Positions 1-11,778 of a stretch of DNA of 64,000 nucleotides are shown here, piece by piece. Source of the DNA: Candidatus Scalindua sp. (lineage in GTDB: Bacteria; Planctomycetota; Brocadiia; Brocadiales; Scalinduaceae); assembly GCA_030748215.1 (NCBI GenBank), contig JASMMK010000015.1, forward strand, positions 1-64,000. Reading direction: 5' to 3'. Each line of letters begins with the position of its first letter. Position 1 is the first letter of the stretch. The notes beneath the pieces were generated by a model. It did not search any database, had not been told where the DNA came from, and saw only the letters and a list, made by a program, of their open reading frames with translations. A program made the translations under genes and the position numbers.

Positions 1-1818
1 TTCAAACCGGCAGGCTACATTACAGACGATGCCGAACTTAAAGACCTTTCGGCCTTTTTCTTCTGGGGTGCGTGGGTTTGTGCGGTGGAAAGACCCGGAG
101 GTGAATCCAGTTATACCCATAACTGGCCTTTTGATGAATATGCCGGGAATACTCCGACACCTTCAGTAATCTTGTGGAGTGTTATTGGAATGCTGTTTCT
201 AATTTTCGGTCTGGGTGCAGTTCTCTGTACTTATAGTTACTATTCAAAGGCCTCTCAGTTGCAAGTCAAGGAGGATCCTGTTGACAATAAAAGTGTTGAT
301 GCATCAGCACCCACAGCCAGCCAACGAGCAACATATAAGTTCTTTGTTGTTGCCGTTTCACTGCTCTTCATACAGATTGTAGCCGGTGTCTTGACGATTC
401 ACGATTTTGTCGGTTTTACAACATTTTTTGGCTACAACATTTCTGAATTTCTACAGATAACTATTACGCGGAGCTGGCATGTGCAGTTATCAATTCTGTG
501 GATAGCTACCTGCTGGATAGCGGGTTCTATCTTTATTCTTCCCGGTATTTACAGGCGGGAATCGAAGCGTCAGGTACTTCTTATCAATGTGCTTTTCGGT
601 CTGCTGGTTTCAGTAGTTATTGGTATGTTTGTGGGCTGCTTTATGGGACCAAAGAATCTGCTTGGCGACCATTGGAGATTACTGGGTAATCAGGGATGGG
701 AATTTGTTGAGCTTGGCAAGTTGTGGCAGGTTGTTCTCTTTGCCGCGCTCGTTATGTGGGCCGTGATTATATACCGCGGGGTTAAACCAGCATTGAAAGG
801 GCAGTCAGCATTTTCTCTGCCATATTGGATTCTCTACTCTGTTATCGCTATAACTATTCTATTCCTGTCAAGCTTTGTGGGCGGGAAGAATACTAATTTT
901 GTTATTGCAGATTTCTGGCGCTGGTGTGTTATTCACATGTGGGCAGAGTGCTTTTTTGAGGTGTTTACAACAATAGTAATCGCCTGTTATATGATACTCA
1001 TGGGCTTGGTGTCCCGGCAGGGTGCTACCAGGGTGATTTACCTGGCGACGCTGCTGTTTCTCGGCTCAGGCCTTCTGGGCATTTCTCACAACTTTTACTG
1101 GAACGCAAAGCCAGCCGCTCTTATGGCCATGGGAAGTGTTTTTTCAACGCTCCAGGTTATTCCGCTTGTACTGTTAACGCTTGAAGTCTGGAAGTTTGTA
1201 CGAGTACCCGGATACTCATTTGGACGTTCAACAAATTCTGCCGTAACAGGATCATCCTTCGGATTCTCAGAGGCATTCCTGTTTCTCATTGCTGTGAATT
1301 TCTGGAACTTTTTCGGTGCCGGTGTATTTGGATTGATCATAAACCTTCCAATAATGAATTACTACGAACATGGTACCTACCTGACTGTCAATCACGGTCA
1401 CGCGGCATTAATGGGTGTTTACGGTAACCTGTCGATAGCGGCAGTTCTGTTCTGCAGTCGGCATGTTATAACTTCCAGGCGTTGGAACGTAAGGCTTCTC
1501 CGCTCTACCTTCTGGGCAATAAACGTGGGGCTCCTGCTGATGGTGGTGATGGATACATTTCCGGCAGGAGTGCTGCAATTCAGGTCGGTTGTTGAAAATG
1601 GCTATTGGGTGGCTCGTTCACAGGAATTTATTCTTGGCAGTGCATTCCAGGTGTTGACGTGGATGCGTGCGGTTGGTGGTGTGCTCTTTTTTGCCGGTGT
1701 GATACCGTTACTCTACTTTATGATATCTCGACTGAATTCACTCAAGGCTGCTGAGACAATGCATAGTTCAGAAGAGTCAGTTCTTACAAAGGAAGAGTTA
1801 ACGATGTGTGATGCTTAA
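1..1818 (+). CDS. nod: Quinol NO-reductase homologue with NO dismutase-type active site (5' partial)
   Basis: The reading frame is open from base 1, so the N-terminus is missing; the in-frame ATG-less stretch before base 85 already reads as qNOR sequence. The remaining part is a polytopic heme-copper-oxidase superfamily subunit of the single-chain quinol NO reductase type. FeB ligand motif HMWAE is present (His codon 934-936, Glu 946-948) and both heme ligands of NHGH are present (1393-1395, 1399-1401). The normally invariant His-His pair reads His-Asn (codons 1087-1092), and the conserved Glu 21 residues further on is Gln (1153-1155). Aligned to Geobacillus qNOR these are positions 560 and 581. 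The His-to-Asn change is the hallmark described for putative NO dismutases of Methylomirabilis and strain HdN1, which split NO to N2 and O2. The family is certain; the dismutase activity is inference, since an unusual or impaired reductase is the alternative. Confidence 0.85.
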   Translation, partial: FKPAGYITDDAELKDLSAFFFWGAWVCAVERPGGESSYTHNWPFDEYAGNTPTPSVILWSVIGMLFLIFGLGAVLCTYSYYSKASQLQVKEDPVDNKSVDASAPTASQRATYKFFVVAVSLLFIQIVAGVLTIHDFVGFTTFFGYNISEFLQITITRSWHVQLSILWIATCWIAGSIFILPGIYRRESKRQVLLINVLFGLLVSVVIGMFVGCFMGPKNLLGDHWRLLGNQGWEFVELGKLWQVVLFAALVMWAVIIYRGVKPALKGQSAFSLPYWILYSVIAITILFLSSFVGGKNTNFVIADFWRWCVIHMWAECFFEVFTTIVIACYMILMGLVSRQGATRVIYLATLLFLGSGLLGISHNFYWNAKPAALMAMGSVFSTLQVIPLVLLTLEVWKFVRVPGYSFGRSTNSAVTGSSFGFSEAFLFLIAVNFWNFFGAGVFGLIINLPIMNYYEHGTYLTVNHGHAALMGVYGNLSIAAVLFCSRHVITSRRWNVRLLRSTFWAINVGLLLMVVMDTFPAGVLQFRSVVENGYWVARSQEFILGSAFQVLTWMRAVGGVLFFAGVIPLLYFMISRLNSLKAAETMHSSEESVLTKEELTMCDA

Positions 1819-1947
1819 ATGACAATGCAATTTGCCTTTTGCTCAGGAAAAAGGTAAAATGATCGCAGAAATTATTACTATTAAAAAAAATATTTAAAAT
1901 AATTATTTGTTTTTAAATCTTTCTAAATTATAGGAGTGGAAATAAAC

Positions 1948-2502
1948 ATGTTGGTTATTAATCAAGTGTTGGGAAATATTAATACTGACGAAAAGTGGAA
2001 AGAACTTTATCAAGTAATGCGTAGTGAAAATCATGTACAAACAATAATGTTTACACGTAAAGAATCAGAAAGGTCTCGCTACTATAAAAAATTACCGAAA
2101 TTTGATGAAGAGATAGGGATAAATATCAAAAGAGGAACGATACTGCACGATGGAGATGTTCTATACTATGAAGAGGGTGAAAATATGTTTGTGGTTGACA
2201 TTGAGCCGGAGGAGATGATGGTTCTCCATTTTGTAGAGAAATTCCATGAAGATAAAATGCTTGAGCTGGCTGTTAAATTGGGTCATGCGATTGGTAACCA
2301 ACACTGGCAAATGAAGGTTGTTGGAAGGAAGATATATGTTCCGATAATGATCGACAAAAAAGTAATGGAATCCGTTATGAAAACGCATAATATTCTAGGT
2401 GTTAAATATTGTTTTGAGGAAGAAGTGGGGGAACAAACACTAAGTGGAGAGTACGGTTCTTTACAAAACACGTCACATAATCACGATCACCACAAATATT
2501 AA
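1948..2502 (+). CDS. ureE: Urease accessory protein UreE (nickel metallochaperone)
   Basis: UreE binds nickel and passes it to the UreG/UreF/UreD complex that assembles the urease active site. The protein is about 184 residues, as usual for the family. It shows the C-terminal domain motif HAIGNQHW, containing the conserved interfacial nickel-binding His region, and ends in a short His-rich tail (HNHDHH). I chose the ATG at 1948, preceded by TAGGAG at 1931-1936; a GTG at 1936 lies inside that ribosome binding site and is unlikely. A very AT-rich 120-bp gap separates it from the upstream NO-reductase homologue, so a promoter for the urea block probably lies at 1830-1930. It is the first gene of ureE-ureF-ureG-ureD; ureABC are not in the window. 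Confidence 0.93.
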   Translation: MLVINQVLGNINTDEKWKELYQVMRSENHVQTIMFTRKESERSRYYKKLPKFDEEIGINIKRGTILHDGDVLYYEEGENMFVVDIEPEEMMVLHFVEKFHEDKMLELAVKLGHAIGNQHWQMKVVGRKIYVPIMIDKKVMESVMKTHNILGVKYCFEEEVGEQTLSGEYGSLQNTSHNHDHHKY

Positions 2503-2519
2503 GAAAAGGATACTTAACA

Positions 2520-3260
2520 GTGAGTATTGACGGCAAAAAAATTCCATTAAGATATGATGTACAGGAAACACATTTAAAATCATTTGCAAAGGCACTTCAG
2601 ATATCAGATACTTTTTTTCCTGTGGGTATGTTTAACTTCTCTCATGGTTTTGAATCATTTGTTCAGGAGGAGATGGTGAAGGATGAAAACGATGTTGTCG
2701 CTTTGCTTGGTGACATTCTTTCCTGCCAAATCGCTCCCGCTGATTGTGTTGCGTTGGCCAATGGTTACAGGGCAGCAGAGCAGTGTGATTTAAATACCAT
2801 TTTATTGGTGGATGAAATGCTTTATGCGATGAAGCTGACAATTGAAAACAGGGATTGTTCTGTAAAGACAGGAAAGTGTCTTCTGTCTAATATCCTGTTA
2901 ATGGTTCCCAAAAATTTAATTATTCGTGAATTTAACGAAAAAGTATGTGCGGGGGACAGTCCGGGAAACTATGCGGTTGCATTAGGTTTAGGTGGCTATC
3001 TCCTAGGAATAACGTGTTCTGAGGTGATGATGATAGAGTTGTATTCCTTTTGTGTTAGTCTTATTAGCGCGGCAATGAAGCTTGTTCAAATTGATCACTA
3101 TACGGCAATAAAGATAATCAATGACTTGCAGCCTTTATTAGTGGATATTATAAAAAAGAATATATACAAATCACCGGGCGAAATGTATTCCTGTGCGCCT
3201 TTAGTAGATATTATGTCTATAAAGCATGAACAAGCAACTGTCCGAATGTTTTTGAGTTAG
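2520..3260 (+). CDS. ureF: Urease accessory protein UreF
   Basis: UreF is the all-helical scaffold that, with UreD and UreG, forms the GTP-dependent urease activation complex. The protein is 246 residues and begins its family-typical region with DTFFPVGMFNFSHGFESFV, matching the conserved UreF N-terminal motif around a D-x-x-F-P-x-G core. The start is GTG at 2520, nine bases after an AAGGA ribosome binding site, 17 bases downstream of ureE. The C-terminus (MSIKHEQATVRMF) resembles the usual UreF end (D-I-x-x-M-x-H-E), which contacts UreG. Translational coupling with ureE is likely. Confidence 0.92.
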   Translation: MSIDGKKIPLRYDVQETHLKSFAKALQISDTFFPVGMFNFSHGFESFVQEEMVKDENDVVALLGDILSCQIAPADCVALANGYRAAEQCDLNTILLVDEMLYAMKLTIENRDCSVKTGKCLLSNILLMVPKNLIIREFNEKVCAGDSPGNYAVALGLGGYLLGITCSEVMMIELYSFCVSLISAAMKLVQIDHYTAIKIINDLQPLLVDIIKKNIYKSPGEMYSCAPLVDIMSIKHEQATVRMFLS

Positions 3261-3298
3261 TGTACAATTTTTTGGAATTCTAAGAGGAAGGAGAATTA

Positions 3299-3919
3299 AT
3301 GGAAAACAAGATTCCGCGAATTGGTGTAGGAGGGCCTGTCGGTTCCGGTAAAACGGCACTTATTGAAGCCGTAGTGCCTGTATTGGTGAAAAATGGGTAC
3401 AAACCAATTATCGTGACCAATGATATTGTTACAAAGGAAGATGCCGAACATGTAAAAAAGACACTAGAGGGTGTTATCCCTGCTGATCGCGTTTTAGGTG
3501 TTGAGACGGGAGGGTGTCCTCATACGGCAGTGAGAGAAGATCCGAGCATGAATCTGATTGCCGTAGAGGAGATGGAAAAAAAATTTCCGGATTCTCACAT
3601 ACTTTTTGTTGAAACAGGAGGGGACAATCTGACACTCACATTTAATTCTGCATTAGTAGATTATTACATTTACGTAATTGATGTCGCTGCTGGAGAAAAA
3701 ATCCCTCGCAAAAATGGCCCTGCAATTACCCAATCTGATCTGTTGATTATTAATAAGATTGATCTGGCTCCACTTGTAAATGCAGATTTAAAAATAATGG
3801 AGCGCGATACAAAGGTGAAGAGAAATGATAAACCTTTTATCTTTACCAATTGCCATACCAAAGAAGGTATAGACGTTGTATTCCAACTAATTAAAAAAGA
3901 GGTTCTTTTTGAGGATTAA
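3299..3919 (+). CDS. ureG: Urease accessory GTPase UreG
   Basis: UreG is the SIMIBI-class GTPase that drives nickel insertion into apo-urease. At 206 residues it has the usual length. The P-loop GGPVGSGKT occupies residues 11-19. The nickel/zinc-binding Cys-Pro-His motif is at residues 73-75 inside VETGGCPHTAVREDPS. The FVETGGDNL switch segment and the NKIDLA base-specificity motif follow. A good ribosome binding site (GGAAGGAG, 3286-3293) precedes the ATG. It lies 38 bases after ureF and 12 bases before ureD. HypB is the closest paralogue, but the CPH context and neighbours make UreG secure. Confidence 0.97.
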   Translation: MENKIPRIGVGGPVGSGKTALIEAVVPVLVKNGYKPIIVTNDIVTKEDAEHVKKTLEGVIPADRVLGVETGGCPHTAVREDPSMNLIAVEEMEKKFPDSHILFVETGGDNLTLTFNSALVDYYIYVIDVAAGEKIPRKNGPAITQSDLLIINKIDLAPLVNADLKIMERDTKVKRNDKPFIFTNCHTKEGIDVVFQLIKKEVLFED

Positions 3920-3931
3920 TGTTTACATTAA

Positions 3932-4870
3932 ATGCTAAAATCTAGCGTTGTTGATTCAAACGATTACTATACTCCTGTAAGTATTCCATCAGAATTTAAC
4001 CAGTATGACCTGGAAGTTCCAACACTCAATGTTGGCAATGCAGGCAAGGTCGGGTTGCTGGCTTTAGTCTTAGAAAATAGAGAGGGAAAGACGACACTTG
4101 TAGAAAACTATCATAAAGTTCCATTGCAAGTTCAAAAGGCCCTTTATATTGATGAGAATATGCCTCATATGCCTTTTGTGTATATCATGAGCCCGAGTGG
4201 TGGAATACTACAAGGTGATAGACTGAGAATAGACATACACGGGCATGAGAATACTACTTTTCATATTACGACCCAGGCTGCGACTAAGATATATCGTATG
4301 GAGAAAAATTATGCAACTCAGATTCTGAATATTACTCTTGATGATGGGTCATATGCAGAATTCTTACCTGATATGATTATCCCATTTAGGGATTCTCGCT
4401 TTTATCAAGAGGTTAATTTAAAAATTCATGAGGATGCAACTTGTCTTTATAGTGAAATATTGTTACCAGGGCGTGTGACTTATGGAGAGTCATTTCTCTA
4501 TGAAATGTTTTATTCGAGATTTAAGGCAACTGATCTATCAGGAAGTTTCAGGTGTTTAGATAATATGGTTTTTTCACCAAAAACGAGTAATCCTAAGTCG
4601 TGTGGTATACTTGGCAATTGGGATATTGTAGCAAGCATTTATTTGCTAACTAAGAAAGTAGAAAGTAAAATACTGAATGCCGAAATAGAAGGAAGTGTAC
4701 AAAAAGCTGATAATGTATATATTGCTTCCACAGTACTTCCTCATTCGGATGGTATTATTGTCCGCATATTGGGTAGAGAATCGAATGATGTTGAGCTTGT
4801 TTGCAAACAAATATGGGATTTGATCCGAATGAAATTACATGGAAAACCTGCTCCTGATTTAAGAAAATAA
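3932..4870 (+). CDS. ureD: Urease accessory protein UreD (UreH)
   Basis: UreD binds apo-urease directly and forms the tunnel through which nickel reaches the active site. The protein is 312 residues. Recognisable family blocks are the SPSGGILQGDRL segment near residue 90, the TTQAATKIYRM segment near residue 115 and the LPDMIIPFRDSRF segment near residue 145; the family consensus of the last is L-P-x-P-x-I-P-F. It starts 12 bases after the ureG stop and lacks a clear ribosome binding site, which suggests coupled translation. The order E-F-G-D without A, B and C implies that the structural genes sit elsewhere or were separated by rearrangement. Confidence 0.93.
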   Translation: MLKSSVVDSNDYYTPVSIPSEFNQYDLEVPTLNVGNAGKVGLLALVLENREGKTTLVENYHKVPLQVQKALYIDENMPHMPFVYIMSPSGGILQGDRLRIDIHGHENTTFHITTQAATKIYRMEKNYATQILNITLDDGSYAEFLPDMIIPFRDSRFYQEVNLKIHEDATCLYSEILLPGRVTYGESFLYEMFYSRFKATDLSGSFRCLDNMVFSPKTSNPKSCGILGNWDIVASIYLLTKKVESKILNAEIEGSVQKADNVYIASTVLPHSDGIIVRILGRESNDVELVCKQIWDLIRMKLHGKPAPDLRK

Positions 4871-4911
4871 TAAACGGTATTATCAATTAAGCTTTATATA
4901 GGAAAATATCA

Positions 4912-6483
4912 ATGACAGAACAGAGCCTTGGTAATGTACAAGCACAGAGTGTGGGAAATACTGCTCTCGAAAATAACTGTGCTGCAGTTTTGTCTATAGC
5001 TGATACTGTACGGACTACACTAGGACCAAAAGGATTAGATAAATTACTAGTGGATGAACTGGGAAATCGTTTTATTACAAACGATGGGGCGACCATAATG
5101 CTATCAGTTAAAACTGTCCATCCTGTAGCAAAATTGGTTGTTGAAATTGCAGACAGGCAAGAAGAGAAGGTTGGTGATGGTACGACTACTGCTGTTGTGT
5201 TAGCGGCAGAAATGATAAAGGAGGGTAACCGGCTGATTACTGACATTGGTATCCATCCTACATTGATTGTGAGAGGTATCGAGTTGGGGATCCAGCGCTC
5301 TATTGAACTTTTCAAGCAAATGGCGATAAAGATTAACGTGGAGGATGCTGGTCTTGCTCAAGTGATTTCGACGGCTGCAGGAAGTAGAATGGATGGAGGT
5401 CAGGTTGTCTCATTAGTAAGTGACGCCCTTGGCTTTCTGAAAAAACCAAATGGAAAAAAGGGAATGATTAATTTGAAAAAAAGTATTTTTTTAATTAATA
5501 ACCCTATGCTGGACGATAGGGTATTTGATGGAATAGTTATTCAAAAACAGCTCTTTGGTCAACAAATACCTGATAATCTGGATAATACCAAAGCGGTCCT
5601 TCTTAAAATAGACTTAAAAGAGATTAAGGAGTCATTGGTTAAAGAGATGAAAAACTATGATGAAATCGTGCGGATGAAAGAACGTCAAACAAAAATGACA
5701 AAAGAGATTTCTGATAGTATATGTGAAACTGGCGCTGGCATTGTATTTATGGCCTCTGCCCATGCGGATGAACAACTCTTGGCCAATCTCCTTGAAGAGA
5801 ATGTCTTGATGATACATGTCTCTAACGAAGAGCTTCTTAACATTGCAAATACCTTAGACGTACAGGTAGTAAGAAGAAAAGAGGATATCGGAGAAATATC
5901 AGTTGGCACTTTTAAGAGTGTATACTATGATGAAGAGAATGGATTATTCTTCTTAGAGAATCACGCGCAGCGAAAAATGGTGACAATCATCATTGGAGGT
6001 GTTACAAAAGTGACATCTCAGGAGCGGTGGCGTACTGTGAAAGATGGTATTTCAGCAGCGCAGTCAGCATTGAATGATGGCATTGTAGCAGGGGGAGGAG
6101 CGGTGGAGCTTTGCATCAGTGAGAAATTAAAAGAGGAAAACTCGAATAGTGGAGTTGATTCTATAGGTATTGAAGTGGTTGCTCATGCCCTTTCAGGTAT
6201 TATGCGTCAAATACTTACAAATGCGGGCTTTAATGGTTTTGAAAAAATGGCTGAGATCAAAAATAAATCCGGAGAATATGGAATAGATATTAGTACAGGG
6301 AAAGAAATAAATATGTTTGAAGCCGGGGTTGTTGATTCAGCAGGTATTAAGATTAATGCATTGAAATCGGCTGCTGAAATCGTCAAAGCTGTTTTGCGTA
6401 TTGATAGAATATTAATTGCCCATTCTCCTCATAATGCAGTTATTGGAAAGTCCGCAAATGAAACAAATTTCAATGATAAATAA
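4912..6483 (+). CDS. Archaeal-like (group II/III) thermosome-type chaperonin
   Basis: This 523-residue protein is a TCP-1/thermosome-like chaperonin rather than GroEL. N-terminal blocks LGPKGLDKLLVDELG and NDGAT and the ATPase motif GDGTTT (residues 88-93) follow the thermosome pattern, and the C-terminal AGGGAVELCIS block is also present. Bacterial homologues are known as group III chaperonins, first described in Carboxydothermus and a few other bacteria; they have a built-in lid and need no GroES. No groES-like gene is nearby. It follows ureD by 41 bases and precedes a urea transporter by 38 bases, so it is probably transcribed with the urea genes. A role in folding urease or its maturation complex is my inference from position only. 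Confidence 0.93.
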   Translation: MTEQSLGNVQAQSVGNTALENNCAAVLSIADTVRTTLGPKGLDKLLVDELGNRFITNDGATIMLSVKTVHPVAKLVVEIADRQEEKVGDGTTTAVVLAAEMIKEGNRLITDIGIHPTLIVRGIELGIQRSIELFKQMAIKINVEDAGLAQVISTAAGSRMDGGQVVSLVSDALGFLKKPNGKKGMINLKKSIFLINNPMLDDRVFDGIVIQKQLFGQQIPDNLDNTKAVLLKIDLKEIKESLVKEMKNYDEIVRMKERQTKMTKEISDSICETGAGIVFMASAHADEQLLANLLEENVLMIHVSNEELLNIANTLDVQVVRRKEDIGEISVGTFKSVYYDEENGLFFLENHAQRKMVTIIIGGVTKVTSQERWRTVKDGISAAQSALNDGIVAGGGAVELCISEKLKEENSNSGVDSIGIEVVAHALSGIMRQILTNAGFNGFEKMAEIKNKSGEYGIDISTGKEINMFEAGVVDSAGIKINALKSAAEIVKAVLRIDRILIAHSPHNAVIGKSANETNFNDK

Positions 6484-11390: not shown

Positions 11391-11397
11391 AAGAATC

Positions 11398-11778
11398 GAA
11401 GCAGACCATAAGCCGAGTTCTGTTTTTGATGACCATTAATCTAGTTCCAATGTTACCATTGGAATCAAGCGGCTTACCCGGAGGTTAAAAAGCGGATCAC
11501 TTTATTCCTCTCTATTTAGCCTTTCTCCCAGCGGGGTTTACCATGCCTCTCTAATCACTCAAAGAGCGGTGGGCTCTTACATTAAGCCTTTATCAGGCCC
11601 CACCTTTTCACCCTTACCTTGTGAGTATTATATCACAAGGCGGTATATTTTCTGTGGCACTTTCCTTGGGATCACTCCCACTCTGCGTTACAGAGCGCTG
11701 TATCCTGTGGAGCTCGGACTTTCCTCTTCAAAGATTAGACATGTGAATAATCCCTGAAGCGGCCATCCTGCCTGCTTC
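11398..11778 (-). ncRNA. rnpB: RNase P RNA (bacterial type A-like)
   Basis: The catalytic RNA of RNase P, which matures tRNA 5' ends, is about 381 nt on the reverse strand. Visible conserved elements in RNA sense are GAGGAAAGUCCGAGCUCC near the 5' end (complement of about 11709-11726), AGAGCCCACCG, GGAAAGUGCCACAGAAA, and ACAGAACUCGGCUUAU near the 3' end. The ends pair as helix P1: 5' GAAGCAGGC with 3' GGUCUGCUUC, which sets the boundaries. The 5' end abuts the stop codon of the zinc-ribbon gene with essentially no spacer, so the RNA is probably cut from, or promoted within, the dnaG-rpoD transcript. A terminator follows. Confidence 0.96.

Follow-up and report, generated by a model that had tools for sequence, protein, structure and literature searches.

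A NO-dismutase-type qNOR homologue beside the urease accessory genes of a Candidatus Scalindua genome

The window, that is the whole 64,000-base stretch of DNA analyzed here (bases 1-64000 of contig C15), belongs to a 2.4 Mb host genome that is 95% complete, and it begins inside a gene. An open frame runs without interruption from position 1 to 1818 of the forward strand (605 visible residues, translation of 1-1815), its 5' end being cut by the contig start. Full-length orthologues have about 773 residues (L103, L104, L099), and the part cut off from the window protein corresponds to the helix at the N-terminus and to the greater part of the periplasmic domain. Pfam recognizes a COX1 domain and the tail of a NorB cytochrome-c-like domain, and no haem c motif (CxxCH) is found in the full-length orthologues. 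With phmmer, the protein aligns end to end with the Geobacillus stearothermophilus qNOR (3ayf; E 4e-134). The latter is also the closest PDB match of the AlphaFold model (mean pLDDT 69, pTM 0.76, with the Asn560 segment of low confidence), with a TM score of 0.78 and about 40% identity in the fold match. On average, the window protein shares 87% identity with Scalindua proteins, 61% with near planctomycete relatives, 55% with the Muricauda group and 37% with canonical qNORs. The gene and its diagnostic segments, numbered as in the G. stearothermophilus qNOR, are the following.

1-1818, forward strand: nod-type qNOR homologue, 605 residues, the first ~165-170 residues cut off by the contig start
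112-129, forward strand: YTHNWP motif, which reads YTNNWP in both solved qNORs, also the site of the primer nod684Fv2
400-426, forward strand: quinol-site segment, with His328 kept (400-402), Glu332 replaced by Gly (412-414) and Phe336 kept (424-426)
478-480, forward strand: His355, inferred haem b ligand, invariant in the alignment
934-960, forward strand: HMWAECFFE, with the FeB ligand His508 (934-936), Glu512 (946-948) and Glu516 (958-960) all kept
1087-1095, forward strand: His559-Asn560-Phe561, His559 at 1087-1089, the FeB ligand His560 replaced by Asn (AAC, 1090-1092)
1153-1155, forward strand: Gln (CAG) in place of the catalytic/proton-transfer Glu581, 21 residues after Asn560
1390-1401, forward strand: NHGH, kept, with the haem ligands His651 and His653 at 1393-1401
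1678-1680, forward strand: Gly in place of the quinol-binding Asp746, from the alignment to qNOR

To compare these residues, 66 sequences from public genomes or plasmids were aligned together with the two solved qNORs, which gives 68 sequences. A canonical qNOR displays three FeB histidines and Glu581, and the window protein departs from it at both places, with Asn for His560 and Gln for Glu581, which are precisely the two replacements expected of a Nod. The alignment divides without intermediates: Asn560 occurs together with Gln581 in 49/68 sequences and His560 with Glu581 in the other 19, no mixed type being observed. Asn560, Phe561 and Gln581 are present in 49/49 members of the Asn/Gln clade and in none of the 19 canonical qNORs and, among the positions that vary little in qNORs, 375, 560, 561 and 581 separate both groups completely. 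The haem ligands, His508, His559, Glu512 and Glu516 are invariant in clade and canonical qNORs alike. Since the AAC and CAG codons recur in eight other Scalindua genomes and both residues are invariant across the clade, chance or a sequencing error cannot account for Asn560 and Gln581. An earlier note on this DNA had described a qNOR homologue with a His-Asn pair at 1087-1092, Gln at 1153-1155, and HxxxE and NHGH kept; this proved correct to the base, and the alignment to qNOR that it proposed puts the Gln exactly 21 residues after Asn560.

The phylogeny agrees with this partition. In a tree calculated without the eight diagnostic columns, a branch of SH-aLRT 100 sets the 46 Asn-type sequences apart from all the others; in a 40-row bootstrap tree that keeps these columns, the Asn/Gln clade is monophyletic with 100/100 support. 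The window protein lies inside a Scalindua clade (100/100), with other Planctomycetota and one Myxococcota genome as nearest neighbors, and the Asn/Gln clade also holds proteins from Muricauda, Flagellimonas and Robiginitalea. Muricauda ruestringensis is among the founding putative NO dismutases of Ettwig et al. 2012 (PMC3413370). Among reference Nods, clustering was judged against the Muricauda/Flagellimonas relatives alone. As judged by alignment and tree, the assignment of the gene to the NO-dismutase-type (Asn/Gln) clade of the qNOR branch of haem-copper oxidases is solid, and the signature that the earlier note had linked to putative NO dismutases thus goes with a position outside ordinary qNORs (100/100). 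Other planctomycetes contain a deep Asn/Gln subclade (L066, L067, L082-L085) with 45% identity to the window protein. This subclade displays Arg332 and FYWIAKP, in agreement with the published nod primer and with what is reported for the NC10-type Nod; four genomes (G174, G203, G272, G307) have both this type and a Scalindua-like one.

The nearest named genomes to the host are those of Candidatus Scalindua, with 91-95% amino-acid identity. The host genome contains the hydrazine synthase alpha subunit (PF18582, at G000:C56) as well as a cd1 nitrite reductase (NirS). The host is thus an anammox bacterium, Candidatus Scalindua, as the earlier note had supposed when it spoke of an anammox-type planctomycete. 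A nod-type gene is present in 9/13 genomes of the genus. In the rest of the family, 2/4 genomes contain a relative and, since these relatives fall in a different subclade, the distribution suggests that nod was acquired twice, separately, within the family. No nod match at E <= 1e-30 was obtained in 42 further genomes of the order, which are anammox relatives outside the family. Compared with its four nearest Scalindua orthologues, the window gene has a dN/dS of 0.03-0.05 (L013-L016 being excluded because an indel shifts the register), which shows that it is under purifying selection. The plasmid search returned only qNOR-level matches with less than 60% identity, and no match was obtained among phages. 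Among viral contigs, a sole relative was observed, a 537-residue nod-like frame (L115:5686-7296) on the 231 kb contig IMGVR_UViG_3300035492_000331. The active-site segment with HxxxE, HN and Gln is missing in this frame, which could be either a phage copy in decay or the product of a faulty assembly.

The genomic context of the window gene differs from that of its relatives. It directly abuts ureE-ureF-ureG-ureD (window 1808-5000), and the boundary is as follows.

1808-1818, forward strand: junction between nod and the sequence that is the ureC-ureE intergenic region of relatives, the stop codon being provided by the new context

In G012 and G013, a spacer and then a ureC-like gene are found upstream of ureE, and the homology with the window starts exactly at the end of nod. 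The urease alpha subunit was not found in the host genome, where the accessory genes are present. A TCP-1/cpn60-family chaperonin gene (4912-6483) lies directly behind these accessory genes, likewise in G012, G013 and G022, and further on the window contains a bacterial RNase P class A RNA (11394-11778, minus strand). The host also possesses a second nod copy on contig C20 (L093:3-434), of which only the end is visible, the gene being truncated by the contig. Both copies share 94% DNA identity over 420 bases (dN 0.020, dS 0.158). The C20 copy sits where G004, G007, G011 and G012 have nod, a conserved site adjoining an MTA phosphorylase-like gene followed by MoxR-, DUF58- and Bat-like genes, as read by eye from the translations. 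The simplest reading of these sequences is that nod was duplicated into the urease locus. One could also wonder whether the window gene is an artefact, due to a sequencing error, a misbinned contig or a chimeric one, given that it starts at a contig edge, that the urease junction is absent from relatives and that urease alpha is missing from the assembly. We judge this very improbable: the same codons are read in the eight other Scalindua genomes, no 20-mer common to the ureC-ureE spacer of relatives and the window contig would explain a false join and, in G007 and G011, a distance of about 27 kb on a single contig separates nod from hzsA, which excludes an error of binning.

The electron-donor site gives a less uniform picture. 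The earlier note had placed the quinol site in the missing N-terminal part of the protein; it lies in fact inside the window, at 400-426 and 1678-1680. Its examination favors the note's proposal in part, since Glu332 and Asp746 are lost, and disfavors it in part, since His328 and Phe336 are kept. Of the three residues that form the canonical site (His328, Glu332, Asp746), two are replaced in the window protein. Throughout the alignment, Asp746 is present in 19/19 qNORs and in none of the clade members covering this position, and Glu332 is absent from 49/49 clade members, canonical qNORs keeping it except for a few. Position 328 varies with the subclade: His in Scalindua, Asn in the Muricauda type, Ser or Ile in the third one. 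The donor site has thus decayed unevenly across the clade, and the metal site is fixed.

Like the Nod of M. ruestringensis (PMC3413370), the window protein has Asn for His560 and Gln for Glu581, has lost Glu332 and Asp746, and belongs to a family without haem c motif. The Muricauda/Flagellimonas relatives that stand in for that protein fall with it in the same strongly supported clade, with 53-56% identity. However, Muricauda-type Nods have Asn328 whereas Scalindua keeps His328, and Scalindua forms a separate, mostly planctomycete subclade. The Nods of Methylomirabilis oxyfera (DAMO_2434/2437) and HdN1, compared by description, are reported to carry the same Asn560/Gln581 signature. Mainly in the NC10 and aquifer clusters, His328 is reported as Thr and Glu332 as Arg (PMC10286720), whereas in Scalindua His328 is kept and Glu332 is Gly. 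On the other hand, the canonical qNORs (3ayf and that of Alcaligenes xylosoxidans) share with the window protein the fold, the haem ligands, His508, His559, Glu512 and Glu516, with 34-40% identity to the aligned qNORs, but His560, Glu581, Glu332 and Asp746 are replaced in it and the two groups form separate clades (100/100).

Altogether, the likeliest function, to which we give a probability of about one half, is NO dismutation, in which the Asn/Gln qNOR homologue would convert NO into N2 and O2. Haem b3 and the altered non-haem metal would take up two NO molecules. As the supply of electrons from quinol and of protons through Glu581 would be impaired, N2O and water would not be released, and NO would be rearranged to N2 and O2. 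NO could be provided from nitrite by the cd1 NirS or by the anammox NO pool, and O2 could be consumed by the organism's own cbb3 oxidase or by other O2-using enzymes, the net effect being NO removal together with a small internal supply of O2. According to the published argument for dismutation, an enzyme that has lost the FeB histidine, Glu581 and its quinol site is unlikely to reduce NO and could plausibly dismutate it, the changes of the Glu332/Asp746 type being read by Ettwig et al. 2012 as a loss of quinol input (PMC3413370). The window protein agrees with this argument in full at the metal site and in part at the quinol site.

The conservation of His328, Phe336, Glu512 and Glu516 in Scalindua seems to count against dismutation, and no measured reaction for any member of the Asn/Gln clade was found in the literature consulted. 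The retained residues, like the overall qNOR fold (3ayf, TM 0.78), would suit an enzyme whose donor site has been rebuilt and which still reduces 2 NO to N2O, serving in NO detoxification; its electrons would come from quinol bound in a modified pocket or from a donor in the periplasm. Indeed, in ocean oxygen-deficient zones, genes with the same active-site changes have been argued to form N2O, since at places poor in norB the peaks of this gas are found together with nod-like genes (PMC5723336), and a qNOR-type gene of S. profunda was annotated in 2013 as NO detoxification (PMC3655542). However, neither Asp746 nor Glu332 remains, every clade member has its FeB ligand and Glu581 replaced, and canonical qNORs keep all these residues, Glu332 excepted in a few. 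We hold continued NO reduction as a serious rival, less probable than dismutation. Published work also warns that "unknown qNor-related" sequences carry these substitutions as well (PMC7338807, PMC10286720), and the differences in donor site between subclades (His328 in Scalindua, Asn in the Muricauda type, Ser/Ile in another) could reflect a lineage with some other function, such as NO sensing, NO binding or NO/O2 chemistry. This seems unlikely to us, the haem ligands, the FeB ligands that remain and the acidic residues 512 and 516 being invariant clade-wide, as expected for a catalyst handling NO.

Returning to dismutation, the other haem-copper proteins of the host were considered. Among its COX1 matches, no other NOR-type protein and no canonical NO reductase was found. 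The other matches comprise a CcoNO fusion, which belongs to a cbb3 operon (CcoNO-CcoP with accessory genes), two NnrS-type proteins and a 148-residue COX1-like frame; the matches on C57 and C32, considered as NOR candidates, were rejected as they are the NnrS-type proteins, and that on C35 is the short frame. We observed no association between nod and the cbb3 oxidase in Scalindua: the oxidase is present in 7/9 genomes with nod and in 3/4 without it. As cbb3 is equally common without nod, its presence cannot help to decide on the function.

The finding is less new than the earlier note implied, nod in Scalindua being already in print since 2023. Zhang et al. 2023 (PMC10359470) stated that two Scalindua MAGs contain nod, the same gene call in the same genus, and the nirS-bearing Scalindua MAGs of that study are without nor. 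Their statement is a one-sentence HMM match, whereas residues, tree, second copy and neighborhood are added here. The residue-level proof, the two acquisitions, the duplicated urease-linked copy and the primer mismatches, all described here, were not found in the literature consulted. In the Arabian Sea, 40% of norB/norZ reads have been assigned to Scalindua (PMC4830246).

One would also wonder what the benefit for Scalindua could be. Scalindua, whose central intermediate is NO, is the main anammox organism of the oxygen-deficient zones of the ocean. A further hypothesis, which we regard as less likely than not, would be that in these zones it makes O2 from its own anammox intermediate NO and respires or oxygenates with it. 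If so, a bacterium regarded as strictly anaerobic would use oxygen of its own making, and a second N2-forming reaction would be added to anammox. Oxygen production by Nod would bear on how nitrogen loss and cryptic oxygen cycling in oxygen-deficient zones are interpreted; if N2O were made instead, Scalindua would be a candidate source of this gas at places with little canonical norB. With the Scalindua enrichments that are available, the product can be tested directly. A 2026 study reports that nitrite is needed for cbb3 activity and O2 consumption in Scalindua, and internal O2 derived from nitrite through NO is a candidate link to this nitrite-dependent oxidase activity (PMC13253579).

Finally, we compared the window gene with the general nod primers. 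The forward primer nod684Fv2 (PMC6636425) has 1 mismatch at its site (112-129, forward strand), and the reverse primer binds as follows.

1092-1112, reverse strand: site of nod1706Rv2, the general reverse primer for nod, with 3 mismatches

These mismatches may have kept Scalindua nod out of nod amplicon surveys, which may thus have undercounted genes of this type.
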